64,000 nt of DNA from assembly GCF_021568905.1 (NCBI RefSeq), contig NZ_JAKGSB010000004.1, positions 62,001 to 126,000 of the forward strand. Reading direction: 5' to 3'. This DNA is from Zavarzinia marina (lineage in GTDB: Bacteria > Pseudomonadota > Alphaproteobacteria > Zavarziniales > Zavarziniaceae). The notes beneath the pieces are model-generated. The model did no database searches. It was not told the origin of the DNA and saw only the letters and a program-made list of their open reading frames with translations. Positions 46,282 through 60,140 of the stretch are shown here, piece by piece (the stretch's first letter is position 1; every line of letters begins with the position of its first letter). A program made the translations under genes and the position numbers.

Positions 46282-46578
46282 TCAGGCCGCGCGGAATTCG
46301 ATCCTGAGGCCGAGGGCCTTCGCCACCTTCAGGATGGTCGCGAAACTGGGATTGCCCTCGCCCGACAGCGCCTTGTACAGCCCTTCTCGGCTCAGGCCGG
46401 TGTCACGCGCCAGTTGCGCCATGTTGCGCGCCCGGGCCACGGTACCGAGAGCGGATGCGACGTAACCGGGATCATCGCCGCCCTCTTCCATGACCGCCTC
46501 CAGATAGGCGGCGATGTCCTCTTCGGTCTTGAGGTAATCGGCGGTGTCATACCGGCTGTAGGTCTCTTTCTCGGTCAT
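46282..46578 (-). CDS. HI1420-type antitoxin, helix-turn-helix
   Basis: The 98-residue protein has an N-terminal YDTADYLKTEEDIAAYLEAVMEE region and a C-terminal XRE-like HTH (LARDTGLSREGLYKALSGEGNPSF, about 56-79), the layout of the probable addiction-module antidote family typified by HI1420. It is translated after the toxin, separated by 3 nt, and should repress the operon through the palindromes at 46878-46926. Confidence 0.92.
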   Translation of the reverse strand: MTEKETYSRYDTADYLKTEEDIAAYLEAVMEEGGDDPGYVASALGTVARARNMAQLARDTGLSREGLYKALSGEGNPSFATILKVAKALGLRIEFRAA

Positions 46579-46581
46579 GAT

Positions 46582-46878
46582 TCAATCCTTCCAATCTAGG
46601 GCGAGGATCTTGGCGCGGGCGATGTCGCGCGCCTGCGTGGATTTGTCACCGCCACACAGGAGAACGATCACAAGAATGCCGCGCCGGATGAAATAGACAC
46701 GATAGCCGGGGCCATAGGTGATCCGCAGTTCCGAGACACCATCGCCGATCGGCTTCACATCGCCGAAGTTGCCGCCGGCGACGCGGTCGAGCCGCGCCCC
46801 GATCCGGGCCTTGGCGCGGATGTCCGTCAGGTCTTCGAGCCAGCGGTCGAAGGTCGCGCTCTTGATGATGTCGAACAC
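46582..46878 (-). CDS. HI1419-type toxin, RelE/ParE superfamily
   Basis: The 98-residue protein has FDRWLEDLTD, GNFGDVKPIGDGVSELRI and GYRVYFIRRGILVIVLLCGGDKSTQARDI, the recognisable pattern of HI1419 addiction-module killer proteins. The GTG at 46878 is the start; the ATG two bases upstream is out of frame. The toxin precedes the antitoxin. The pair lies next to the prophage attachment site on the chromosome side. Confidence 0.92.
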   Translation of the reverse strand: MFDIIKSATFDRWLEDLTDIRAKARIGARLDRVAGGNFGDVKPIGDGVSELRITYGPGYRVYFIRRGILVIVLLCGGDKSTQARDIARAKILALDWKD

Positions 46879-47932: not shown

Positions 47933-48251
47933 CGGATTCGGCCTCCTGGCGGGCGATTTCGACGGATTGGAGAGCGGCGCGCGCCGCGCGGGCCTGATCC
48001 TGCACGCGGGCCAGAACGGTGGCGGTCGCGGCCTCACGGCGCCGCGCTTCCGCCGCATGGATTTCGGCAACGGCCAGATCGTGGCGAAGCCCTGCGATCC
48101 AGACCCAGACCACGGCGGCGGCGATGACAGAGACGCAGACGGCCGCCCAGCGCCAGGCGCCCTTGATACCGGCCCAGATCGCACCGGCGCCGGGGATCAG
48201 GGCCGGCAGCCAATCGAGATGGTCGAGGACGAGAGACATCAGGCCGCTCAT
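47811..48251 (-). CDS. i-spanin (Rz-like) inner-membrane protein
   Basis: The 146-residue protein has one N-terminal transmembrane span (about 33-55, AAVCVSVIAAAVVWVWIAGL) and a long charged periplasmic coiled-coil rich in Ala, Arg and Gln (about 60-125). This matches inner-membrane spanin subunits. The ATG at 48251 has AGGGGG upstream and overlaps the holin-like gene stop (ATGA). It overlaps the o-spanin gene. Confidence 0.78.
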   Translation of the reverse strand: MSGLMSLVLDHLDWLPALIPGAGAIWAGIKGAWRWAAVCVSVIAAAVVWVWIAGLRHDLAVAEIHAAEARRREAATATVLARVQDQARAARAALQSVEIARQEAESDAQSLRRRITAAPRSRACADSPAIRGLLDDLRAGADDDHP

Positions 48252-48481
48252 GTCCGCCCCCCTCGCCATGCGCCCAGCCGCTCAACCGACGCGCCGCCGA
48301 CATAGATCGCGGTCGTCCAGGTCATCAGATCGGTCCCTTGCCGTATCGCCTCCAATGCAATGGACGGATCCGCGACCATGGTGAGACCGCGCGCGACCAT
48401 GGCCGCGCCGGCGCACCACGACGCGATCACGGCCGCGCGGCGCAGCGGCGACCATTTCGGGGTGTCGGGGAGATCCGCCAT
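48248..48481 (-). CDS. holin-like small membrane protein
   Basis: The 77-residue protein has a basic N-terminus (SPLRRA) and two weakly hydrophobic segments (about 17-36 and 52-65), is placed between an endolysin and a spanin, and overlaps the latter by 4 nt. These features fit a phage holin or pinholin, but there is no diagnostic motif. Confidence 0.6.
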   Translation of the reverse strand: MADLPDTPKWSPLRRAAVIASWCAGAAMVARGLTMVADPSIALEAIRQGTDLMTWTTAIYVGGASVERLGAWRGGRT

Positions 48482-48486
48482 CGCCG

Positions 48487-49080
48487 TCAGGCCTCGATGA
48501 AGCTCTGCCGGCCATCGCCGGCCGGCCCGAGGGCGAAGAAGAGATGCGCCCCGATGCGCGCCGATGGCGCCCGCCCGACCGCCCATTTCGGGGGCCATTT
48601 GCCCGGCGCCCGGGCATAGGCGGGCGCGGCGATCGTGTGATAGTGGTCGGCCCTGCCGGTCGGATCGGGGATGCGGCCCGCCAGCACGCCGTCGACCAGC
48701 GACAGAATCTCCGCGATGCCGGACCAGCCGAGGGTGATGGCCCGCAACCGATCCCCCTGGGCGTCGGACCAGCATGTGAACTGCCACGGGTCGCGGCACA
48801 CCGCCTCGATCGTGTCATCGGGGATGCCGTCTCCGCGCTCCCGGCTCCACCAGGACGGTTGCCGCCAGCGGTTGACGATGACCCAAGCCACGGCCACTTG
48901 GCCGGCGCTGCCCTCGCCCCGGGCCTCGCCCCAGAGGGTCGCCGCCATGGCCAGCCGATCGGCGTCGCGGAGCGCGGTGGGGCCAGACAGCGACGCCGGC
49001 GGCGGCGATCGCTCGACAATGGCGTCGATCAGCCGGCGAAGGCTGGCGAAGAACCGGTCCTGGTCCAGGTTCATTCCCAT
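48487..49080 (-). CDS. phage endolysin, cell-wall hydrolase SleB family
   Basis: The 197-residue protein carries LWGEARGEG (49-57, catalytic Glu52 candidate) and VAVAWVIVNR, then WQFTCW, the SleB/Hydrolase_2 pattern of peptidoglycan lytic enzymes. The ATG at 49080 has GGAG six bases upstream. No signal peptide is visible, so release depends on the holin. A second SleB-type domain is in the ejection protein at 56807-58492. Confidence 0.88.
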   Translation of the reverse strand: MGMNLDQDRFFASLRRLIDAIVERSPPPASLSGPTALRDADRLAMAATLWGEARGEGSAGQVAVAWVIVNRWRQPSWWSRERGDGIPDDTIEAVCRDPWQFTCWSDAQGDRLRAITLGWSGIAEILSLVDGVLAGRIPDPTGRADHYHTIAAPAYARAPGKWPPKWAVGRAPSARIGAHLFFALGPAGDGRQSFIEA

Positions 49081-49081
49081 G

Positions 49082-49288
49082 TCACTCTCCTTCGAGGCCG
49101 ACGCGGCCGGGCCGCTGGGCGCGGAATCGGACCTGCTCAGCAATTGCGTCCACAAGCTGGCGAGCCAGGACATCGGCGTTCTCCGTGGAAACCGGGGTGA
49201 TAATCCGGGCCCCCGTCTCGTCTGTGCCGGCCAGGACGACCCGGTCAATGTCGGGCATGAAGGCGGCAGTCAGGTGACCTTCGGTCAT
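49082..49288 (-). CDS. small phage protein, unknown function
   Basis: The 68-residue frame starts MTEGHLTAAFMPDIDRVV and ends before the endolysin with a 1-nt gap. Its ATG overlaps the stop of the coiled-coil membrane protein (ATGA). No family is recognised and no membrane segment is seen. Tight coupling on both sides supports it being real. Confidence 0.6.
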   Translation of the reverse strand: MTEGHLTAAFMPDIDRVVLAGTDETGARIITPVSTENADVLARQLVDAIAEQVRFRAQRPGRVGLEGE

Positions 49289-49638
49289 GGCCTCGGGCCC
49301 GCCAGGAAGTCGTGGATACGAGACCAGTTGGATGCGATCAAAGCGGCCAGCCCACCGATCGCGACCCACAGCCACCGGCCCAGGCGGATCATGTCGGCAA
49401 ATGCGGAAGCCCGGCCCTTTCGTGCCGTTTCAGCGTCCGTCAGGCCCTTGACCGCCTCGGCCAACGATTTGACCGAGGTGTTGAGCCCGTCGATCGCCTC
49501 GGCCGTTCTCGTGATCATGACCCGTTGCTCGCCCTGCTCGACGGCGAGCTCCTTCACCTGCTTCTGGAAGGTGAGGATGAGGTCGAACAGGTTTTGCTGC
49601 GTCTGGTCCACGGGTCTACCACCTGTACCGTTCAGCAT
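49285..49638 (-). CDS. phage coiled-coil protein with C-terminal membrane anchor
   Basis: The 117-residue protein has a heptad-rich region (about 12-72, FQKQVKELAVEQGEQR through LAEAVKGLTDAE) and a C-terminal transmembrane span (about 90-106, GRWLWVAIGGLAALIAS). Its ATG shares one base with the stop of the upstream gene. Position next to the lysis genes suggests a holin partner or antiholin; unproven. Confidence 0.65.
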   Translation of the reverse strand: MLNGTGGRPVDQTQQNLFDLILTFQKQVKELAVEQGEQRVMITRTAEAIDGLNTSVKSLAEAVKGLTDAETARKGRASAFADMIRLGRWLWVAIGGLAALIASNWSRIHDFLAGPRP

Positions 49639-50429
49639 CACGAGGCCAGCCAGGCGCGGAGGGCCGCCAGCAGGCTCGTGTTGGCCGGCGCGAAGGGGTT
49701 CATCGCGAACACCGCCAGCTTCTGCACCTCGCCGGTGTGGGCGAATGCGGAGTTGAGACCGCCGCCGACACGGAACCGCATGTCGGTCAGCGGTGTCAGG
49801 TAGGTGCCGTCAGCCCAGGCCGTGACCGAATTGTTCTCCGCCTGGAGCCCGTTGGTGGTGTCGGCACCCCAGATGAACTTGCAGAAGATGCCGGCATTGT
49901 TTTCCGTCCCCGAGGTCGACCCGTAAGTCGAGTTGTCGTTGGCGAAGAAGCGCGGACGCTGCGCCGTGCCACCGGACATGCCGACGCAGGGGGAAATGTC
50001 CGCGCTCGTCGTGCCCGCGCCGATCACGGGGCCGATGATCTGGTTCGATCCGGTATCCAGCGGATAACCGGCATAGGCCACGCCCCAGGCCGTCGTTCCA
50101 ACCGGAAGCGCCAGGTCCGCGCTCGACGCGGGGGCGAAGTAATGGCCGTCGAAGTCGATCGCTGCCTTGCTGTTCGAGCTGGTGACGATGTCCGGGTTTC
50201 CAGTGCCAATCAGGCGGGCCTTGGCATCTTCGCGGGCATAGCGGTTCCTCAGGTGCCGGACACCGGCCACGACGGTGGTGAACTGCGTCGCGTGGGCAGA
50301 GATCATCAGGACACCATTGGTGCCGAGAAGGCGCGTGACGTCGATTTCCTCGGCACTGGCGACGATGCCGGGGTAATCGTTCTCCTCGACCACGGCATTG
50401 GCGAGGCGCTGTGCAGTCTGAAATGCCAT
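49638..50429 (-). CDS. phage virion-associated protein, unknown function
   Basis: The 263-residue protein is rich in Gly, Ser, Thr, Asn and short beta-strand-like patterns, with no signal peptide. It follows the tail spike by 12 nt and may be a tail-spike chaperone, an alternative host-binding protein or a minor virion component. I do not recognise the family. Confidence 0.65.
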   Translation of the reverse strand: MAFQTAQRLANAVVEENDYPGIVASAEEIDVTRLLGTNGVLMISAHATQFTTVVAGVRHLRNRYAREDAKARLIGTGNPDIVTSSNSKAAIDFDGHYFAPASSADLALPVGTTAWGVAYAGYPLDTGSNQIIGPVIGAGTTSADISPCVGMSGGTAQRPRFFANDNSTYGSTSGTENNAGIFCKFIWGADTTNGLQAENNSVTAWADGTYLTPLTDMRFRVGGGLNSAFAHTGEVQKLAVFAMNPFAPANTSLLAALRAWLAS

Positions 50430-50441
50430 CTTGCGGGCTCC

Positions 50442-52823
50442 TTACGGGATATAGACGCGCTCATGGGCCAGCCAGCGGTGAAGCCGCGCCGCGCCCGGAT
50501 AGGTCGAGGTGATGTAGGAGATCGTCCGGATGTTGGTCCGGGGTCGCTGCTCGAAATCGACGCGATTGAGAGCGTCCGGATCGTCGTAACCCTTGAGGCC
50601 GACGTCGAGGGCGTCCCCGCTCGCCCAGTTTTGGGACGACGTGACGATCAGGTGGCGTTCGCCGGACACGTCATTGTCGATCGTCGCGGACACGAGGGAC
50701 GGCCAGTTGTCCATGTCCGCCTCCCCGTTCTCGTTGTGCTGGAGGCCGTAGAGCGTGCCCGTGCGCTGTGTGATGGTGGTGGTGTCGATTTCGACATCCT
50801 CACCGCCCAGGATCTTGAACGTCGCCACGGCGCCGGCCACCGAGACCGGCGTCGGATCGAGCGCCAGGGGTGCCAGCCCGGCGGCGGTGTACTGCGCTTC
50901 CCATACCGCCCGGGCGATCTTCTCGCCGAGGTGAAACTGACCGATTGCCGCGAGGTGCAGCTTGTCGACGTTGTTGGCCGCGTAGAGCAGTTCCGCGTAA
51001 CGCGTATCGACCAGATAGTGGGTGATCGGCGCCCCGGCGGCGTAGGCGGCGAGCACCGCGTCCGTGGTCAGGTACAGGCTCTCGTTCTTCACCGTGAAAT
51101 TGGACGAGACGCCGCAGATGAAGAAGGGAACGCCCGCTTCCTGCCCGGTCACGGCCTTGATGTCGGCCTCGGCGTCGGACTGCCATTCGATCAGGTCGTC
51201 GTCATAGTCCGGGTTGTCGTCGTCGGTTTCCCCGTGGACGTTGATGATGCCGTCGACTTGGATTACCCAGCCCTGCGCCGCCGCGATCGCAACGGCATCG
51301 GTCAGGGCGGTGATCATGTTCGTGTAGGGCACCGACCCCTTCTTGAGGGAGTCATACGCACTGCCACCGTGGCCCCACACCATGCCGAGATATCGCTGCT
51401 TCACCCCGAGTTCCGCCCACACGCGGCGGTGCAGCGCCGGGAGGAAGGATTCCATCACGGTCTGGCCGTGCAGGCTGCCGCCGGGGAAGAGTTCGCTCGT
51501 GTCCGGATTGATGACCTCGGAGGGTCGACCGAGATGCGCCGCGAGATCCTTGAAGCCGTCGGCGTCGTTCGCGGAATAGCTCTGGAAGTCCCCGCCCGTG
51601 CCCTGGTTCACCCAGCCGCGAACGTCCGAATCTCCGCGCACGGCGTCGGTGTCCAGCATCAGCACCCAGCCAGGGAACGGATTGTTGACCGAGATCAGGT
51701 CCGTCGCGCTCAGTGCGCAGATCACCGACTGGCCGGTGCCGATCCAGACATGCAGCACGCGGTCGGAGAGCGTGCCCCATGTGTCGCAGGCGCGGGTCAT
51801 GACGACGGTCTCGCGCGTGCCGGCCGCCGGACGCTGCCACGTCACCTTGTAGCGCGGGCCGGCGGCGGTCTCGATGTGGGCGACGGTCTCGACCGTCCAG
51901 TCCAGGGAGACGGTCTCCGCTGTGCCGTCGGCGCCGATCTTGGAAATCGACCCGGTGAGCACGCCGGCATCCTCCAGCGCGTCATAGGTCCATGTATCGG
52001 GGTATTCCTCCGGCGCGGTGACGTCGTAGGGTTCGAGGTTCAGATTGGTGTTCTCGACATAGGCCCATACCGTGGTGCCGATGGAGTCGAACTGGATATC
52101 GGTCGCGATATCGCCGAAGTCCCCGAAGGGCTGCGGCCAGGGTATGGCATTGGAGGTTGTCACGGCGATTTCCGAGATTTCGGCGGTCCCGAGCTGGCCA
52201 TCGAAAAGGGCGAGGGTCTGGCCTTCGGCGAAGGCGCGCACGACGTTGTCGACACTGTCGAAGCTGATGGCCTCGGCGATATCGCCGAAGTCCCCGAAGG
52301 GCTGCGGCCAGGACAGCGTGTCGTCGGGGTAGGTGCCTTCGAGCACCGCCACCCGGCTGTTCAGCGGCCCGGTGACCGCCGCCGCCCCGGCGGGCGTGAT
52401 CGCCTTGTTGTCGTTGACGCCGGCAATCACCTCGGCGCTGCTGGCCTTGTCCACGGTGATGACGATCGGCGAAAGCAGGTTGCCGCCGCCCGTCGCGAGA
52501 CCGGCGCCCGTGACCGTGGTGGTTTCGAGATACTCCAGGGCCTCTCCCTCTCGGGCGGTGACGGGATCGGCGGACCAGACGAGGATATCGTCGGCATCGT
52601 GCAGGATGACCTTGTACTGACCGACCGCGAGGAAGACGGAAGGAAAGCGGCCGGTGGCGTCACTCACGACGGGGTTCGCGTTCGGCGTCGACATGTCGCT
52701 GTCGGCGAAGGTCGCCTTGGGCGTCGACGTGCCGGAGGCGTAGAAATAGAGCTTGGCCCCTGCCAGGGGGACGCCGCTCGCGTCCTGCCAAACGAAATAG
52801 GGCGCGACGAAACGATCTGCCAT
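50442..52823 (-). CDS. phage tail spike with SGNH-hydrolase (esterase-type) domain
   Basis: The 793-residue protein has an N-terminal virion-binding region beginning MADRFVAPYFVWQDASGVPLAG, common in podovirus tail fibres. A mid-section contains two copies of WPQPFGDFGDIA (172-183 and 229-240), 57 residues apart. An SGNH hydrolase domain has nucleophile Ser366 (GTGQS), VHGET (529-533) and the Asp620-x2-His623 pair (DKLH). Such spikes deacetylate or cleave host surface polysaccharide. Its leader contains an intrinsic terminator 18 nt before the ATG. Confidence 0.88.
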   Translation of the reverse strand: MADRFVAPYFVWQDASGVPLAGAKLYFYASGTSTPKATFADSDMSTPNANPVVSDATGRFPSVFLAVGQYKVILHDADDILVWSADPVTAREGEALEYLETTTVTGAGLATGGGNLLSPIVITVDKASSAEVIAGVNDNKAITPAGAAAVTGPLNSRVAVLEGTYPDDTLSWPQPFGDFGDIAEAISFDSVDNVVRAFAEGQTLALFDGQLGTAEISEIAVTTSNAIPWPQPFGDFGDIATDIQFDSIGTTVWAYVENTNLNLEPYDVTAPEEYPDTWTYDALEDAGVLTGSISKIGADGTAETVSLDWTVETVAHIETAAGPRYKVTWQRPAAGTRETVVMTRACDTWGTLSDRVLHVWIGTGQSVICALSATDLISVNNPFPGWVLMLDTDAVRGDSDVRGWVNQGTGGDFQSYSANDADGFKDLAAHLGRPSEVINPDTSELFPGGSLHGQTVMESFLPALHRRVWAELGVKQRYLGMVWGHGGSAYDSLKKGSVPYTNMITALTDAVAIAAAQGWVIQVDGIINVHGETDDDNPDYDDDLIEWQSDAEADIKAVTGQEAGVPFFICGVSSNFTVKNESLYLTTDAVLAAYAAGAPITHYLVDTRYAELLYAANNVDKLHLAAIGQFHLGEKIARAVWEAQYTAAGLAPLALDPTPVSVAGAVATFKILGGEDVEIDTTTITQRTGTLYGLQHNENGEADMDNWPSLVSATIDNDVSGERHLIVTSSQNWASGDALDVGLKGYDDPDALNRVDFEQRPRTNIRTISYITSTYPGAARLHRWLAHERVYIP
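52105..52312 (-). repeat. direct repeat within the tail spike gene
   Basis: An identical 37-nt block occurs at 52105-52141 and 52276-52312, 171 nt (57 codons) apart. It encodes the repeated WPQPFGDFGDIA motif. Identity at DNA level points to recent duplication or gene conversion, or to selection on the DNA. Confidence 0.9.
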
Positions 52824-52840
52824 TCCGGGTCTCCGGGCAT

Positions 52841-52865
52841 AAAAAAAGCCCCGCCGAAGCGGGGC
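52841..52865 (-). terminator. intrinsic terminator in the tail-spike leader
   Basis: On the minus strand GCCCCGC-TTCG-GCGGGGC is followed directly by seven T (52847 down to 52841), a textbook rho-independent terminator. The tail spike ATG (52823) is only 18 nt beyond, with GGAG between. A promoter cannot easily fit in that gap, so the transcript for the spike and lysis genes must read through this terminator. Confidence 0.85.
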
Positions 52866-52915
52866 CCGTCAGGGTGTGGTTTCTGTGGTGATCAGGCGTC
52901 GAGGGTGACCACGAG

Positions 52916-52964
52916 GCGCCGCTGTATGGACACGGAAGCACTTTCCTTGTCCATACAGCGGCGC
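52916..52964. repeat. 49-nt near-perfect hairpin
   Basis: The 17-bp arms 52916-52932 and 52948-52964 are exact complements. The 15-nt loop has an inner GGAA/TTCC pair, so almost the entire element folds. No T-run follows, so it is not a simple terminator. It lies 51 nt upstream of the leader terminator on the minus strand. Confidence 0.85.
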
Positions 52965-53061
52965 GAACACGCAGAAACTCGACGGTTTCGGAAGAGTGAG
53001 CGGCCGGCTACGAGTCTTGTGGTGGACTTTTTCCGTGACCTGATGTAGAGCCCCACGCGCA

Positions 53062-53098
53062 GAGCATTTTGAGCGCGCGCGCCGAGCATTTTGAGCGC
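53062..53098. repeat. 15-bp direct repeat, 22-bp period
   Basis: GAGCATTTTGAGCGC occurs twice (53062-53076, 53084-53098), two helical turns apart, so both copies face the same side of the DNA. This spacing is usual for cooperative binding of an activator or repressor. It lies between the moron cassette and the tail-spike leader. Confidence 0.75.
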
Positions 53099-53236
53099 AC
53101 TTGCAGTGGCGTTCGCACACTTTGCGCTATAGAGTTCGCTCATGGAACATACCTGTCGCGCGGTGTCGAGGGTTTGTTTCGGTTCGGCGAACACCAATAT
53201 GCACTGTTGTGTTCTTGACAACGGATGGGTGATGCC

Positions 53237-53452
53237 ATGAAGAAGCAAAGCGCGGTCGAACGCGACTCCAATCGGAGAATCGCCATGCGCGCGTTCGGCA
53301 CGGGCCTCATCAGCGGCCTCGGTGCCCTCCCCATGCTCTATTCCGCCGTCGAGTTGAACCCGGGGTCCGCCATCCAACGCTCGACTGTAGCGTCCGCGTG
53401 GAATACCGTGGGACAACATATTCGATCGGCCTTGCGGAAAGAAAGCCCCTAA
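53237..53452 (+). CDS. small phage membrane protein (moron candidate)
   Basis: The 71-residue protein has a charged N-terminus (MKKQSAVERDSNRR) and one hydrophobic stretch (about 17-40, MRAFGTGLISGLGALPMLYSAVEL). It is on the plus strand, opposite to the phage late genes, and followed directly by a terminator hairpin. No family is recognised. The nearby ATG at 53225 is an alternative start. Confidence 0.6.
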   Translation: MKKQSAVERDSNRRIAMRAFGTGLISGLGALPMLYSAVELNPGSAIQRSTVASAWNTVGQHIRSALRKESP

Positions 53453-53457
53453 ATGAA

Positions 53458-53477
53458 AGGCCGCCCGGAGGCGGCCT
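53458..53477. terminator. bidirectional terminator between convergent small genes
   Basis: AGGCCGCC-CGGA-GGCGGCCT forms an 8-bp stem with a tetraloop between the stop of the plus-strand membrane protein (53452) and the stop of the minus-strand lipoprotein (53476). T-rich sequence lies on the plus-strand side (tctttgttt) and TTTCATTT on the other. Confidence 0.75.
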
Positions 53478-53769
53478 ATCTCTTTGTTTCAGCGCAAACA
53501 TTCAGCCCACCGAGCCGCTCGTCCACCCGGCACTTGTAACCACATTCGTAATCGCCACGAGCTGCATTGCCCGTCGCTAGAAGCCAGTCCAAGGCGGCCG
53601 CCCGACACTGCTCCAGCGTCGCGAAGTCGCCAATCTCGCTGTGGACCGTGAGGTCATATCGGCTTGGATAAACGAATGCTCTCCACGGCTCACCGGAGGG
53701 AATGTCGCACCCCCACAGAGCCGCCGAAAGCGCTACCGCCGACAAGATGCGTAGTCTCTTTCGCCGCAT
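53476..53769 (-). CDS. small phage lipoprotein (moron candidate)
   Basis: The 97-residue protein starts MRRKRLRILSAVALSAALWGC, a lipoprotein signal with lipobox ALWGC (Cys21), and has five further cysteines, including CGYKC. The centre DFATLEQCRAAALDWL resembles small proteobacterial exported proteins of unknown role. It lies alone on the minus strand inside a cassette of opposite-strand genes. Surface lipoproteins from prophages often block superinfection. Confidence 0.7.
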   Translation of the reverse strand: MRRKRLRILSAVALSAALWGCDIPSGEPWRAFVYPSRYDLTVHSEIGDFATLEQCRAAALDWLLATGNAARGDYECGYKCRVDERLGGLNVCAETKR

Positions 53770-54003
53770 TCTTCCTCGCTACTGCCTGCCTACCCTTCCT
53801 GGAAAGGGTACCCCAGAGACGTCACCGATTGGTTGAAGCAAAACCTGTGATCGGCGCGCTCTCCTTGTGGTAGATTGTGCTATGGAAACCGCTCGCTGGA
53901 TCGCCCGCGAAATCCGATGAAGTATCCGCGCCCAACCGCCGTAATTGGCCCACATCGAAATGATGCTCAAGTCCATCAGCATCTACGATTTAGGAGGCTC
54001 GCG

Positions 54004-54474
54004 ATGCCCCCTTCGAAGCATACTTGTTGTGCGATCCTCGCCATTCTTGTGGCGGCTACGCCTCTCGGTAATGGTTCGGTCGCGGCGGCAGATGGTGTTC
54101 TGGCGCGCTGCGGGGCCTCGAAAGGGCGCGGCTATTTCCTGAAGGACAACCTTTCGAACCCGGACGGCCCGATGTGGGCGGACGATGGTATTTCTAGCGG
54201 CAAAGTTGTCCTCATCCGGCTGGGCGATGAATGGGATATCCAGTTTGACGACACGGTAGGAGCCTATGGTTATCGTCAGGACGGAGCAACGGTAGCCATG
54301 CTCGGACAGTTCGGCGAAAGGCTCAGCATTGGCGCGTTTAGAGGGACATACGCGGATATTTTTACGTTCGACTTCGCTGAAAAAGAAGTCGTCTGGACAA
54401 GCCAGAAAATCGGCACCTTCGTTCCCAAGGTCGCTGTCTATGTTGCCAAATGCGAAATCGTCAACAGACCATAG
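54004..54474 (+). CDS. secreted phage protein, unknown function (moron candidate)
   Basis: The 156-residue protein has a Sec-type signal peptide (ILAILVAATPLGNGSVAAA, about 11-29). The mature part has only two cysteines (near residues 36 and 150) and is mixed alpha/beta in appearance, without a recognisable family. AGGAGG lies six bases before the ATG, the strongest ribosome site in this cassette. It is the largest of four envelope-targeted genes here. Confidence 0.7.
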   Translation: MPPSKHTCCAILAILVAATPLGNGSVAAADGVLARCGASKGRGYFLKDNLSNPDGPMWADDGISSGKVVLIRLGDEWDIQFDDTVGAYGYRQDGATVAMLGQFGERLSIGAFRGTYADIFTFDFAEKEVVWTSQKIGTFVPKVAVYVAKCEIVNRP

Positions 54475-54576
54475 AGGGGTTAGGAACCGCCGGCCTCATC
54501 GCTACCGAGATCGAGCCATAGACTACGGGGCAATTCCCCTCGTGTTCATCACGTTTCCTCGTGGTAATCTCGCCCC

Positions 54577-54876
54577 ATGAAACACCCGATCTACGGCACC
54601 AGATTGACCGACGAAGAAGCTTTCAACCGGCGTCGGTGGGGGCTCGTCGGTGTCTTAGCCGTTGCCGCGCTGGCCATGGGCGTCATTGGTGCCACACTGG
54701 TGGGTCTTTCGCGTGATGGCTGGCCCCTTTGGCCATTTGCCGCGCTTTTGGCATTGGTCTTCGTCGTTTGGGTCACACGCCGCGTCCTTTCAACTCTCGA
54801 CAAAATCGACCGTCGCACCGCCGAAATGCTTCGCATCACGCGAGAATTCGAGGACATCAACAACGGTCATCTCTGA
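54577..54876 (+). CDS. small two-helix phage membrane protein (moron candidate)
   Basis: The 99-residue protein has two transmembrane helices (about 22-45 and 50-68) and a charged C-terminal helix (STLDKIDRRTAEMLRITREFEDI). Its 3' end overlaps the convergent ejection protein gene by 10 nt. No family is recognised. It is the last of the four small envelope genes. Confidence 0.65.
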   Translation: MKHPIYGTRLTDEEAFNRRRWGLVGVLAVAALAMGVIGATLVGLSRDGWPLWPFAALLALVFVVWVTRRVLSTLDKIDRRTAEMLRITREFEDINNGHL

Positions 54877-56807
54877 CCGGGCAGTGGCGCGTAGGGCGCA
54901 CGCGGATTCTGGTCCAGGATGGTTTCCCGGCCGAAGCCGGTCAGGGCGTTGGTCTGCCGGTAGGATAGGCCGACCCGCTCCAGCGGATTCAACAGCGCCC
55001 TCTCTGCCGCATCGGTATTCGTGTTCGTCAGCATCCGGGCCAATTCTTCATCCGTGCGCGCCCGCATCGTGTCCCGCATCCTCTTGGCCGTGCCGCCGAC
55101 GAGCTTACTCCACAGATTGCTCATCGCACCGCCGGACGCGTAGGTCAGCGCAAGATCGTGCACGAGGTCATCCGCATCGGCCCGCTCGGCCATCCGCCGA
55201 TAGGTGGCGCTGTTTCCAAGCGCACGGCCGGTCAGTTCCGATATCCCCGTCTCGAATGACAGAACGTCGGCCCACCGCCGGGCCGACGCAAAATCCGGCA
55301 TGAGGGCGAGGATCTTTTCCCTGTTTTCAGGAGACCGCAGATACTTCGTGAGGTCCGGCATCCTCGCGGCGTCGTTTCCAACGCGGTTTCGAATGGCGCT
55401 GATGGCGCCGATCCGCATAGCCTCGCGCTCCGCCGCCGACATCGAACTCACCAACGAGCGCCACGACTCCGCGCTCATGGTCCGGGCGAAAATGCCCTTT
55501 CCCTTCTCGATCGCGTCGAGATACCGGGTTGGCCCGGCCCATGCGTTGCGGGCCGCCGCATAGTCCGGGTTCACTTGGTCGGCGACATCGATCACGCGCT
55601 GTTTCATGGCTCTCATGACGCGCGCCGCGTTTGCGTTCCCCGCCCTCAACGCGGCATCGATCTTGTCGTCCACAATCCGCTTCCAACCGTCGATCAGCAC
55701 CATCGCTGGGGCATCCTCGACGGCTTCGACGCCATATTCAGTGGCCATGAGATTGCGCAGTTCCGCCGACTTGAGCGCCGCGAAGCCGAAGCCGCGAGAC
55801 GTTTCGGCGTTGAACGCCTTCATCAGTTCGGGGGAGGCGGCGGCGTCGAAGGACATTGCCTTCTCGTACAGCGGACGCGCCATTCGGGCCCGCGCATCCA
55901 TTGTCTCCTCGACCGCCTGCGCCGCCGTGCGCTTGGCATCCAGCGTGTCGCCGATTTCGTTCCCGAGCCGCGTGATCTGGGTTTTCTGGCGGCCGGTCAG
56001 GAACGGGATTACGATTTTTCTCCCCCCGCCCGGCGTTTGCGCGACCCGTTCCGCGAGCCCGCGCACGTTCTCCCCGCCCGCGTCCATGATCGTCGCCTCG
56101 CCGGGGAATTTTTCGGCAAGGTCGCGCTGTCGGGAGGCCAGCCCCTCCACCGTCATTTCGTCCCTCTGGACCGCGCGGGCGAGATCCCGCCGTGCGGCGG
56201 CTTCGGGCCCGAACAACTTTCCGGCCACACGGCCGGCCACACCGAGTGTGGCGGGGATGACGGCGCCCAGCGTTCCGCCGATGAGGCCGCCGGTCAAGGC
56301 ACCTTCCGCGCGCTGATCGGGCGCGGCATTGCCGTATCCCGCCAAGGCCCCCTCGGCAGCGCCGATCCCCGCCATGCGGGCGACGCCGCCGATGCCCTTC
56401 ACGCCTTGGGACGCAATACCGCCCGGAAGAGCGAGGCCCGCCACCGCGCCCCCGGTGCCGCTCGCCAGGGAATGGATGATCGGATGCTCTTCCTGGAAGT
56501 TGGCGTCATCCGCATTGTATTCGTCAACGTTCCGCCGGTATGCCTCGCCGAGGCTCGGAGCGGACCCGAACACGTAGTCGAAGGGTGCCCGGATGCCAGC
56601 CTGAATTTCGTCGCCGAAGCCGAAAGTCGCGCCCTGCTGCAGTGCTCGGGCCGTTCCTGCGGCGAATGTCCCCACGTCTCCGGCCGTATCAGCGGCCTTG
56701 TCGAGAAACGACTTCTGACTTTCCTGCAGGATGGCTGCGACCTGCTCATCCGTCGCGTTGTCGGGCACCCGGATCGTGCGCCCCTGAAACTGGATCGTGC
56801 GCGCCAT
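54867..56807 (-). CDS. phage ejection/internal virion protein
   Basis: The 646-residue protein begins MARTIQFQGRTIRVPDNATDEQVAAIL and is rich in Ala and Gly, with a central helical part. The glycine-rich segment at about 120-200 (SGTGGAVAGLALPGG through GGLIGGTLGAVIPATLGVAGRVAG) is amphipathic or hydrophobic and could pass through a membrane. It lies where P22-like phages have gp16/gp20. Its ATG shares one base with the stop of the SleB-domain protein (TAATG). Confidence 0.75.
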   Translation of the reverse strand: MARTIQFQGRTIRVPDNATDEQVAAILQESQKSFLDKAADTAGDVGTFAAGTARALQQGATFGFGDEIQAGIRAPFDYVFGSAPSLGEAYRRNVDEYNADDANFQEEHPIIHSLASGTGGAVAGLALPGGIASQGVKGIGGVARMAGIGAAEGALAGYGNAAPDQRAEGALTGGLIGGTLGAVIPATLGVAGRVAGKLFGPEAAARRDLARAVQRDEMTVEGLASRQRDLAEKFPGEATIMDAGGENVRGLAERVAQTPGGGRKIVIPFLTGRQKTQITRLGNEIGDTLDAKRTAAQAVEETMDARARMARPLYEKAMSFDAAASPELMKAFNAETSRGFGFAALKSAELRNLMATEYGVEAVEDAPAMVLIDGWKRIVDDKIDAALRAGNANAARVMRAMKQRVIDVADQVNPDYAAARNAWAGPTRYLDAIEKGKGIFARTMSAESWRSLVSSMSAAEREAMRIGAISAIRNRVGNDAARMPDLTKYLRSPENREKILALMPDFASARRWADVLSFETGISELTGRALGNSATYRRMAERADADDLVHDLALTYASGGAMSNLWSKLVGGTAKRMRDTMRARTDEELARMLTNTNTDAAERALLNPLERVGLSYRQTNALTGFGRETILDQNPRAPYAPLPGQR

Positions 56808-58492
56808 TATTTGACCCTCACGGGGGCCCCATCGGGCCCGATATCCCATTCCTCGATTGTCCCCGCGCCAACGGCCGCTCCGCCGCTGGGAGAAGCGCCT
56901 TCCGGTGGCGGCAAGGGCTGGTCCACGAGCCGCGCCGCAGGCCCGAGCCCGCGCCGAATGGCTTCCAGCGCAATTTGCCGCGATCGCCGCTTTTGCTCCA
57001 GAACCGTTTTGTCATCGCCCGGCTGGGGCAGGTACATCTTGCCGTAAATCTCGATTTCCGACGGCGTTACGGCGGCGCCGGTGTCCTTGCGAAGGATAGC
57101 CGCCAGAAACTCCCTGCCCGCCTGTTCGGCGAGCTTGAATTTCTGTTCGGTCAGTTGGTTGCCGACGAGCGGGACGCCCGAGAGGCGCTGTTCGAGCCAA
57201 TCGGTCAGGGCCGCCTCATTTTCATTGAGGTTTTTCAGCGACTCGGTGCCGCGCGTGTAGAACCCGACGTCTTTCGACTGCTGCTCCGTCAGCTTCATGT
57301 CGTTGACATTGACCGTCGTTCCGCTGGCCGGAGGGGCGCCGAGGTCCGCGACGCGGACGCCGGTGGCCTTGTCGATCAGGAAGCGCCGGCCGTCGAGATT
57401 GGTCTCGCCGACATCGACCTGCACGAACTGCCCGTTCCCCGCATCGCGAAGGAGAACCTGCTTCCCGTTGACGCCGCCCGGCCAATACCCCGGGGCCAGA
57501 GGCGGCGCGCCGTTGCTCTGGGGGGTGCCGGCCGCGCCCGCCGCCGTCCCGCCCGCCGACGGGGTATCGACACCGGCATAGAACATCTGGTTGCCGATCC
57601 GCTGCCCCTGTCGCCCGGCCGCCCAGGAGGGGGCGGGCCGGCCGAGGGCCTGCTGCGCCGTCGGCGAGTAGAAATGCGTCGCCCCGCCCGTGGGATCCTG
57701 AATCCGCCCGGCCATGAGATCGGCGGCGATCCGCTGCGCCTCGGCGAACTGCGGCGTGCCGCGCAGCGACATCAGCTTGGCCGGGTCCGACATCGGCTCG
57801 AACTGGTTCGGCGCCGTGATGACGTCGCTGATGCCCTTGCCATAGCGTCCGGCGCCCACGCGATTGAGGATCGTCGCGCCCACGGCGGTCATGCCCTCCG
57901 GCGATTGGCCGTCTTCCGCGACCATCATCAGGGCGAGCTTGTCGGTGTCGCTCATGCCCGCGAACTCGGGCGGCGGCAGCGCATCCGCGTTCGGCTCCAC
58001 GATCGTCCTTGGCGCGGCCGACGGGCCAGTCGCGCCGCCCGCCGATCCGCCGTACCCGGGAAGCGGCTGCGGCATGCTCCCGACCCGCTTCGCGAAGCCC
58101 TCGTCCATCATCGCGAAGGGCCGCACGAAATTGGGGTCGTAGGTCGACGGAAGGCGCGAAACATCGAACCCCGCGCCCTGTAGCTGCGGCAGGATGGACC
58201 GGTAGGCATCCGCCCGCTGATCCTCGGGAAGGCTTTCGATACCCGCCGCCACCTTCACCGCGAACTCAGCCGCTTTGCGCCGCGAGTCCAACTGGTTGGA
58301 TTGCCAGTTCATCGCGAGCTCGGGCGCGACGCCGGCCAATTCGGTCAGCGCGTTGGTGTCGCCGGAGAACAGACGGGGCGTGATTTCGGCGAGCGCATTC
58401 TTGCGCTGCCGCTGGTCGTAGATGTCCCGAAGCTGCGCGCCCCGCATCAGGCTTCCGCCGAAATCGACGGGCTGGATCGGTCGGATGTTCAT
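56807..58492 (-). CDS. phage ejection protein with SleB-type peptidoglycan hydrolase domain
   Basis: The 561-residue virion protein has an N-terminal helical region (1-135), a cell-wall-hydrolase SleB domain (about 183-305) with LALMMVAEDGQSPEG (Glu193), GATILNRV and THFYSP motifs, and a C-terminal region with a helical tail. It probably opens the murein during DNA injection. It starts 9 nt after the preceding gp7-like gene. Confidence 0.82.
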   Translation of the reverse strand: MNIRPIQPVDFGGSLMRGAQLRDIYDQRQRKNALAEITPRLFSGDTNALTELAGVAPELAMNWQSNQLDSRRKAAEFAVKVAAGIESLPEDQRADAYRSILPQLQGAGFDVSRLPSTYDPNFVRPFAMMDEGFAKRVGSMPQPLPGYGGSAGGATGPSAAPRTIVEPNADALPPPEFAGMSDTDKLALMMVAEDGQSPEGMTAVGATILNRVGAGRYGKGISDVITAPNQFEPMSDPAKLMSLRGTPQFAEAQRIAADLMAGRIQDPTGGATHFYSPTAQQALGRPAPSWAAGRQGQRIGNQMFYAGVDTPSAGGTAAGAAGTPQSNGAPPLAPGYWPGGVNGKQVLLRDAGNGQFVQVDVGETNLDGRRFLIDKATGVRVADLGAPPASGTTVNVNDMKLTEQQSKDVGFYTRGTESLKNLNENEAALTDWLEQRLSGVPLVGNQLTEQKFKLAEQAGREFLAAILRKDTGAAVTPSEIEIYGKMYLPQPGDDKTVLEQKRRSRQIALEAIRRGLGPAARLVDQPLPPPEGASPSGGAAVGAGTIEEWDIGPDGAPVRVK

Positions 58493-58501
58493 GGCTACCC
58501 C

Positions 58502-59353
58502 CTACGCGAAGAAGGACAGTGCCGTCAGGGCGTTGCCCACGCCCTTGTTCCAGCCGCTGAACTGGTCGCCATAGATCGACGCGCGCGCCTCGCCGGTCCC
58601 AAGGATGTTCTGGGTCTGGTTGGTCGCGTACTGGCTGCCCGCCGCCGCCGTCGAATTGGTCGCGCTCTGGCCGATCCCAGCCAACCCGGCGAGGCGGTTG
58701 AAGTAGTTCCCGTATTCCGTCGAGGCGAGGTTCTGCCCGAAGTCCTGCGTCCCCTTGACCTGGGCGCCCGAAAGCAGCATCCCGCGCGAGGCCGCCGACC
58801 GATCCAGGGCGTTCAGCCCCTCGGTGAAGCGGAACTGATAGTCAGGGGACGCCGTGAAGCGCGAAAACGCGTTCTGCTGCGCTTCCGTGGCGCTGATGGG
58901 AGAGGTCGTCGCGCCGCCGGTCTGCGGTGTCGGCGTGGCCGGCGCCGGCGCGGAATAGCCGGCGTTGATCTTGCTTTCGAGTGCCGCAATCTGGTTCTGG
59001 ATCTGGATCCTCTCATACCCTCGCGCATCCGCGAGTTGCTGCTTGAGATTGTTCAGTTGCAGCGTGTCGTTGGCGAAATCCAGGCCGGGATTGAACGTCG
59101 ACGGGGCCGCCTGCGTGAGCGCATTGTCGTTGGTCGGCGGGGGCTTCGCGTAGGAGTCCGCGCCGCCGAGACCCATGAGGGACGAAAGCTCATAGAGGGC
59201 GTTCGTGCCGACGTCGCGCCACGGGCCCAGGTCCTCCCGCGTGGTATCGTAGATGTAGCGGTTGAGGGCGGTGGCTTCCGCCGACGCATCCTTGACCGCG
59301 TTGGCCTGCTTGTTGCCGCCGATGAGCGACGAGATCGCGGAAACGATCGCCAT
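58502..59353 (-). CDS. phage DNA-ejection/tail-assembly protein, gp7-like position
   Basis: The 283-residue protein starts MAIVSAISSLIGGNKQANA and is rich in Ala, Gln, Asn and Ser, with a coiled segment LNNLKQQLADARGYERIQIQNQIAALESK (about 100-128). It lies where P22-type phages encode gp7/gp14. It is 2 nt from the GNAT gene. Function is inferred from position and composition. Confidence 0.7.
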   Translation of the reverse strand: MAIVSAISSLIGGNKQANAVKDASAEATALNRYIYDTTREDLGPWRDVGTNALYELSSLMGLGGADSYAKPPPTNDNALTQAAPSTFNPGLDFANDTLQLNNLKQQLADARGYERIQIQNQIAALESKINAGYSAPAPATPTPQTGGATTSPISATEAQQNAFSRFTASPDYQFRFTEGLNALDRSAASRGMLLSGAQVKGTQDFGQNLASTEYGNYFNRLAGLAGIGQSATNSTAAAGSQYATNQTQNILGTGEARASIYGDQFSGWNKGVGNALTALSFFA

Positions 59354-59355
59354 GG

Positions 59356-59805
59356 TCAGAGCCTCTTGATGTAAGTGCGTTCGGCGGGGCGATAGCCCCG
59401 GCGCCGATAGAGCCGATCCAGCGTCTCGGCGCGGAGCGATGCCACGGCGAGCATCGTGAAACTCGACGCGCCCCTGTCGCGCACCGCCGTCTCCAGCGCC
59501 GCCAGCAGGGGGCCGCCAACGCCGCAGCGCGCCGGCGGGTCGACGTACCAGAACCATTCCTGGGCGGTCTTCTCGTCCGGGCAGAACCAGGTCGGGCAGA
59601 TCACGGCCGCCGCCATGCCGACCACGAAGCCCTGGACATCGGCGACCAGCATCACGCAGTCGTCGCGCCCCATCATCCGGCCGAGCGCATCCCTTGCGCC
59701 GGCATCGTCCCACCGGCTCACGTCGTCCCAGCCCGCCTCATGAAAAAAGGCCCGCCCCATCTGGACGAGCCTTTCGAGGTCTCGGGGTTCCGCCTCGCGG
59801 ATCAT
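59356..59805 (-). CDS. phage-encoded GNAT N-acetyltransferase
   Basis: The 149-residue GNAT protein has the FVVGMAAAVICPTWF strand and an acetyl-CoA region CGVGGPLLAALETAV (about 93-107). It begins MIREAEPRDLERLVQM. It lies inside the structural operon, coupled to its neighbour. Such genes in podoviruses may modify a virion or host protein. Confidence 0.85.
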   Translation of the reverse strand: MIREAEPRDLERLVQMGRAFFHEAGWDDVSRWDDAGARDALGRMMGRDDCVMLVADVQGFVVGMAAAVICPTWFCPDEKTAQEWFWYVDPPARCGVGGPLLAALETAVRDRGASSFTMLAVASLRAETLDRLYRRRGYRPAERTYIKRL

Positions 59806-60140
59806 CAGGTGATTTCGCCGCCGGAGACGATCAGGTTGACCTGCGATCCGTTCGACGCCACGGCCTGGATGGTGCCGCCCGCCTCGAGGTAGTGGCCGAC
59901 GATTTCCGGCACGATCTGCGACTGCCCGGCCGCGATCGAGCGGTCCTTGATGACCTGATTGGTGTCGTCCGCGCTACCGCCCGTCGGAACCAGCCAGATC
60001 GAGAATGTCTCGGCCGTCGAGTTGTCGTTGCGGATGGTCGCCGCGTCGATCCGCGCCTTGACGTTCGTCGCCGTGTAGTAGGTCGCGGGCGAATTGGTCA
60101 GTTGCGCCCCGGAAACGAGGCGCCTCGGATAGAACCCCAT
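59805..60140 (-). CDS. small phage structural protein, unknown
   Basis: The 111-residue protein starts MGFYPRRLVSGAQLTNSPATYY and reads as beta-strand-rich, with SIWLVPTGGSADD. Similar short proteins in phages are head or tail decoration or neck proteins. Its stop overlaps the GNAT start by 1 nt. No family name can be given. Confidence 0.65.
   Translation of the reverse strand: MGFYPRRLVSGAQLTNSPATYYTATNVKARIDAATIRNDNSTAETFSIWLVPTGGSADDTNQVIKDRSIAAGQSQIVPEIVGHYLEAGGTIQAVASNGSQVNLIVSGGEIT

Follow-up and report, generated by a model that had tools for sequence, protein, structure and literature searches.

An intrinsic terminator abutting the ribosome site of a prophage tail-spike gene, probably a gate on late transcription

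A prophage of Zavarzinia marina carries an intrinsic terminator directly before its tail-spike gene, and the terminator abuts the Shine-Dalgarno sequence of that gene. The same layout recurs in unrelated short-tailed phages, and it is probably a gate that keeps the spike gene silent until RNA polymerase modified by the phage passes the terminator. In kind it is ordinary, an internal terminator like that of phage P22, but the precision and frequency of its fusion to the ribosome site are unusual. The window analysed here is the whole 64,000-nt stretch, and its end falls inside the prophage.

The spike leader and the prophage around it

The features of the spike region are listed below.

50442..52823, minus strand: tail-spike gene, 793 aa, with an N-terminal GAKLYFYASGTSTP anchor domain common to other podophage spikes
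52831..52834, minus strand: GGAG, the Shine-Dalgarno sequence of the spike, separated from the ATG by 7 nt
52841..52847, minus strand: T7 tract of the terminator, 6 nt 5' of the Shine-Dalgarno sequence
52848..52865, minus strand: intrinsic terminator stem-loop GCCCCGC-UUCG-GCGGGGC, from sequence, terminator scan and folding
52916..52964, minus strand: hairpin of 49 nt; arms of 22 nt, a single mismatch, loop of 5 nt
53234..53452, plus strand: small moron (accessory) gene for 72 aa, transcribed away from the spike; family searches gave no match
53458..53477, no strand given: bidirectional-looking terminator between converging moron genes, from the terminator scan
53476..53769, minus strand: small accessory gene for a lipoprotein-like product of 97 aa, whose signal peptide has ...ALWGC
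53896..54474, plus strand: accessory ORF, 192 aa as scanned, antisense to the late operon
54577..54876, plus strand: accessory ORF
54867..56849, minus strand: ejection-like virion protein gene, 660 aa, phrog_5880 (function unknown), the last late gene before the moron block

Along the minus strand, the 49-nt hairpin is followed by 50 nt, the terminator stem-loop, the T7 tract, GGAG and the spike ATG (52823-52821). The terminator has seven G-C pairs, a cUUCGg loop and seven U, that is, the G-C-rich stem, short loop and immediately following U-run of an intrinsic terminator, and its folding energy is -17.2 kcal/mol. In leaders of 165, 285 and 399 nt its pairs, an outer G-U pair excepted, had probabilities of 0.91-1.0 by equilibrium folding only. 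A strict terminator scan of the 45-kb prophage region found five terminators on the minus strand, the spike terminator among them, and one on the plus strand; first-order Markov sequences of the same composition gave 0-2 per strand. The terminator in the spike leader is real and above chance.

The first-pass annotation had placed a terminator with a GCGGGGC stem and seven T 18 nt before the spike ATG. The terminator was confirmed, and 17 nt separate its T-run from the ATG, one fewer than claimed. We agree that no promoter has space between the terminator and the ATG. That spike mRNA started upstream has to cross the terminator was also supported. The terminator occurs at the same position in distant relatives, and P22 offers a precedent for a terminator combined with late antitermination ahead of the tail-spike. 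The first-pass annotation did not mention that the 410 nt upstream lie between the spike and accessory genes on both strands, the late genes not being direct neighbours. No sigma-70 consensus promoter was found in 48000-60000, which is under the shuffle mean, the consensus being uninformative for this organism. An ORF at 52892-53419 (minus strand), ending just 5' of the terminator, was rejected as a gene, with no family match.

The late genes run on the minus strand in the order large terminase, portal, GroES-like, scaffold-like, head-closure, ejection-like, spike and lysis. From its position, the 660-aa protein would have an ejection role. The receptor-acting part of the spike is SGNH/SASA esterase-like, and 3' of the anchor domain the gene holds two 88-nt direct repeats, 171 nt apart and 73% identical (52054-52312). 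Beyond the window, in extended window coordinates, lie genes for a CI-like repressor (79316-80287) and a tyrosine integrase (90009-91106). By the repressor gene the palindrome AATAGGAACGTTCCTATT occurs twice, about 31 bp apart (L080:17837-17886, extended 80837-80886), and the two copies are likely operators. A toxin-antitoxin-like pair, Gp49/HigB-like plus an HTH antidote, lies at the host/prophage edge (46282-46878, minus strand).

A 2-kb accessory (moron) block, with three plus-strand ORFs and one minus-strand lipoprotein-like gene, separates the 660-aa ejection-like gene from the spike. The ORF at 53896..54474 has an internal ATG at 54004, which would yield a secreted protein with a signal peptide. 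The arrangement is of the P22 type: the last ejection-like gene is followed by four accessory ORFs (53234-54876), and these by a terminator on the spike strand and then the spike. Because the accessory ORFs gave no family matches to the immI genes mnt, arc and ant, the block is not an immI region and only occupies the same slot as that of P22. The region from the spike leader to the plus-strand moron gene also holds a 21-nt direct repeat (CGCGCAGAGCATTTTGAGCGC) in two copies with a spacing of 22 bp (53056-53098), a possible regulator site.

Terminators in related phages

Relatives were gathered with the N-terminal anchor domain of the spike. In 96 related genomes this anchor gave only one distant match among prophages (G039); in genome contigs an alignment query gave four relatives and a single-sequence query none. 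Among the first eight loci, a terminator stood just before the spike ATG in L006, L008, L009, L010 and L011 but not in L005, L007 and L012. Over all clusters, the window included, the terminator stem ended 17-28 nt before the spike ATG in 17 of 51, versus 4 of 409 control genes from the same contigs (Fisher 1.7e-14); gene calls on these contigs are simple longest-ORF calls and the clusters are not phylogenetically independent. The distance was 17-23 nt in 16 of the 17 clusters having the terminator. When annotated phages were added and the upstream gap was at least 45 nt, 15 of 27 spike genes had the terminator versus 5 of 182 control genes (p = 7e-12). A U-run was present at 16 of the 17 strong hairpins in that position, so the feature consists of terminators and not of generic hairpins. 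Stems and loops vary in sequence among relatives; position and type are conserved, bases are not. About two thirds of the related spike genes have no terminator, which is therefore not indispensable; where the spike is coupled directly to the upstream gene, there is no space for one.

The spike terminator was found in Pseudanabaena phages Pam1 and Pan3 and in Xanthomonas phage PBR31, which has two in tandem. The records of all three carry an integrase gene, and they are temperate cultured phages. It was also found in contigs of Pelagibius litoralis (a prophage) and Sneathiella glossodoripedis. Curvivirga aplysinae lacks the terminator and has a spike directly coupled to the gene before it, and the same holds for phages of Vibrio, Shewanella, Thalassomonas and Pseudoalteromonas. 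In P22-type clusters a terminator lies about 60-175 nt, sometimes further, before the gene 9 ATG, and in some clusters only; none abutting the Shine-Dalgarno sequence of gene 9 was found among P22-type prophage clusters.

The spike is not the only gene with this design. A second composite of terminator, U-run and Shine-Dalgarno sequence was found in the same operon between the GroES-like and scaffold-like genes (L080:4251-4232, minus strand; extended 67251-67232), where a late gene lies directly upstream and no moron adjoins. In PBR31 (L178), whose record annotates an antiterminator Q and whose late gene order is similar to that of this prophage, terminators abut the Shine-Dalgarno sequences of the MCP gene and orf23, both within the late operon, and of the first gene after Q (11743, 13120 and 5007). 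In Pam1 (L179), one abuts that of the adaptor gene (5854). Because of these further cases, the terminator-Shine-Dalgarno design is taken as a general late-operon device, commonest before the spike among the sampled genes.

The main rival to the gate is partial attenuation for dosage, in which a fixed share of late transcripts stops and the dose of spike and lysis proteins is lowered relative to the head proteins, with no regulated antitermination. The late terminator after the capsid gene of T7 is the textbook case. We regard this explanation as possible but rather unlikely here. It would suit the placing of terminators at stoichiometry steps (MCP, orf23 and spike in PBR31, the adaptor in Pam1, the scaffold-like gene here), but with seven G-C pairs, a UUCG loop and U7 the terminator ought to halt almost every unmodified polymerase, and the phage would lose most of its spike and lysis mRNA. 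Terminators inside late operons have been noted in phages, with roles described as unknown, and partial termination is one possible role named by the phage L authors (PMC8022706). Phage L resembles the present case in that terminators are predicted within a late operon that presumably has only one promoter; it differs in that its example lies at the end of the procapsid genes, whereas here the position is fixed to the ribosome site and recurs (PMC8022706).

Alternatively, the terminator could be a relic at the moron boundary, left by frequent exchange of spike cassettes and morons and ignored by the late polymerase. The moron slot is indeed in high flux in P22-like phages (PMC2629481). However, a spacing of 17-23 nt to the ATG across unrelated sequences is unexpected for random relics, and in L027 the terminator is present though a late gene lies directly upstream (gap 50 nt). 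We consider such an origin unlikely.

The 49-nt hairpin

The first-pass annotation had reported a near-perfect 49-nt hairpin just upstream on the same strand, and this was verified. Its folding energy is -40.5 kcal/mol, it is the longest inverted repeat of such type in 103 kb, and it has a single copy in the genome. The leader folds much better than its shuffles (z = -7.6), mainly owing to the stem of this hairpin. When the leader was compared across relatives, the terminator recurred and the hairpin did not, being absent upstream of all related spike genes with or without a terminator. The hairpin is private to this prophage. An Rfam search of the leader gave chance-level matches only, none above gathering. 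Three further candidates were rejected: neither leader nor hairpin is a repeat element, as no nucleotide copies occur elsewhere in the genome; one 17-base match to a hairpin arm in viral contigs was a single arm with no palindrome and was taken as chance; and a larger stem built from the hairpin flanks was no better than shuffled flanks (17% of shuffles equally good).

The leader had also been read as an RNA-controlled attenuator with the hairpin as sensor, and this found no support. Relatives have the same terminator without the hairpin, as does the scaffold-like gene in the same operon, and no leader structure competes with the terminator. Mutually exclusive terminator and antiterminator folds were sought in leaders of 165-399 nt by equilibrium folding and were absent. 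A local switch controlled by RNA or protein, with the hairpin as sensor or put-like element, is therefore very unlikely, although a very stable hairpin does adjoin the terminator. The put RNA of HK022 consists of two hairpins near the early promoters and acts in cis on RNA polymerase; nothing in the present leader points to such an action. HK022 and the present leader are alike in that folded RNA and terminators are both present; they differ in that a single non-conserved hairpin is found here, far downstream of the presumed late promoter and with no Rfam match above gathering.

A role in translation or mRNA stability, with a 5' hairpin and a U-rich S1 site before the Shine-Dalgarno sequence, possibly exposed by an RNase III cut of the 49-nt hairpin, is highly improbable: the U-run does extend almost to the Shine-Dalgarno sequence and a two-turn stem suits RNase III (for this stem a guess), but the U-run would be superfluous for a stability hairpin, as would the hairpin for a U-rich site, and still a U-run accompanies 16 of the 17 strong hairpins at this position.

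P22, the proposed gate and the antisense neighbour

Berget, Poteete and Sauer reportedly dealt with the P22 tail protein and transcription termination in 1983. The P22 record (NC_002371) has sieA, mnt, arc and ant between genes 16 and 9, with sieA antisense, and annotates a terminator between ant and gene 9. P22 and this prophage share the order of ejection gene, moron block on both strands, intrinsic terminator and tail-spike, with late transcription presumably running through the block. They differ in spacing: in P22 about 170 nt lie between the end of the terminator and gene 9, whereas the terminators of this prophage and of the GAKLYFY spike group abut the Shine-Dalgarno sequence (17-28 nt). 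P22 also has a known late antiterminator, gp23, and none was recognised here. The ant moron is believed to influence the frequency with which the PLate polymerase arrives at the tail-spike gene (PMC2629481).

We think it somewhat probable that the spike terminator is an internal late-operon terminator that insulates the spike from moron or leaky transcription and is passed by processively antiterminated polymerase after induction. The terminator would halt polymerase that comes in from the morons or has started by leaky or divergent initiation, and the spike and downstream lysis genes would thereby be silent in the lysogen. After induction, antiterminated polymerase from a late promoter about 20 kb or more upstream would pass, much as late transcription in P22 is believed to continue across the ant terminator to gene 9. 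The proposal builds on what was observed, namely the terminator and its position, its recurrence with tight spacing, the moron block and the second terminator in the operon; read-through, the antiterminator, the timing and silence in the lysogen are what we infer from these. The strong terminator, the lack of downstream promoter space, the recurrence, its presence in temperate phages, the Q and further terminators of PBR31, the second terminator in this operon, the frequent antisense genes in the slot and the P22 counterpart count for a gate. Against it count the lack of a recognised Q-type antiterminator, the two thirds of related spike genes with no terminator, the terminator that the lipoprotein moron gene already has (53458-53477), so that the transcript needing a stop is not obvious, and the scaffold-gene terminator, which has no moron beside it.

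Antitermination of the Q type, as in lambda and P22, would account for passage through strong terminators, and PBR31 has an annotated Q; the difference is that no Q homologue, qut site or late promoter was identified in this prophage. No Q-type antiterminator was found among the tested prophage ORFs, and PF06530 is absent from the genome; an antiterminator of another type may exist. A 176-aa ORF without known family (L080:9948-10478, minus strand) lies between the primase gene and a terminator (9785-9766) before the terminase genes. This is the position expected for Q or a late antiterminator, and the ORF is a lead only.

The slot before the spike often holds a second gene. Of 26 related loci whose gap measures 75-500 nt, 15 have in the leader a short antisense ORF with a membrane segment; Markov sequences predict 1.15, and among 61 control junctions 3 have one. 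Members of an antisense ORF family differ mainly at third codon positions, a sign that one or more of these families are genuine genes. These ORFs run into the 3' end of the ejection gene; they lie 14-100 nt 5' of the spike ATG in L024, L026, L028, L043, L050, L084, L085, L093, L095 and others. Loci whose antisense start codon lies no more than about 30 nt from the spike ATG have no terminator, and those with a more distant start codon usually do, which is partly geometry. The ORFs are candidate SieA-like exclusion genes. SieA of P22 is an inner-membrane protein that blocks DNA injection (PMC10883804). In the same slot of the Salmonella prophage BTP1, several sense and antisense start sites are used in the lysogen, and an exclusion antisense RNA is made before the spike (PMC7067206). 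The slot may thus be in use in the lysogen, and the terminator would keep such transcription out of the spike.

More tentatively, the terminator fused to the Shine-Dalgarno sequence could be a dedicated gate that evolved repeatedly, controls the receptor-binding-protein genes of short-tailed temperate phages in Proteobacteria and Cyanobacteria, and is paired with a lysogen-expressed antisense membrane-protein gene in the SieA slot. The fused design also gives a simple sequence landmark for spike genes and the adjoining moron slot. Its conserved position before one gene class, together with temperate isolates such as PBR31 and Pam1, makes its role directly testable. If the dedicated gate is true, a lysogen would produce the exclusion protein and no spike at all, a state that could be reversed solely by late polymerase in antiterminated form.
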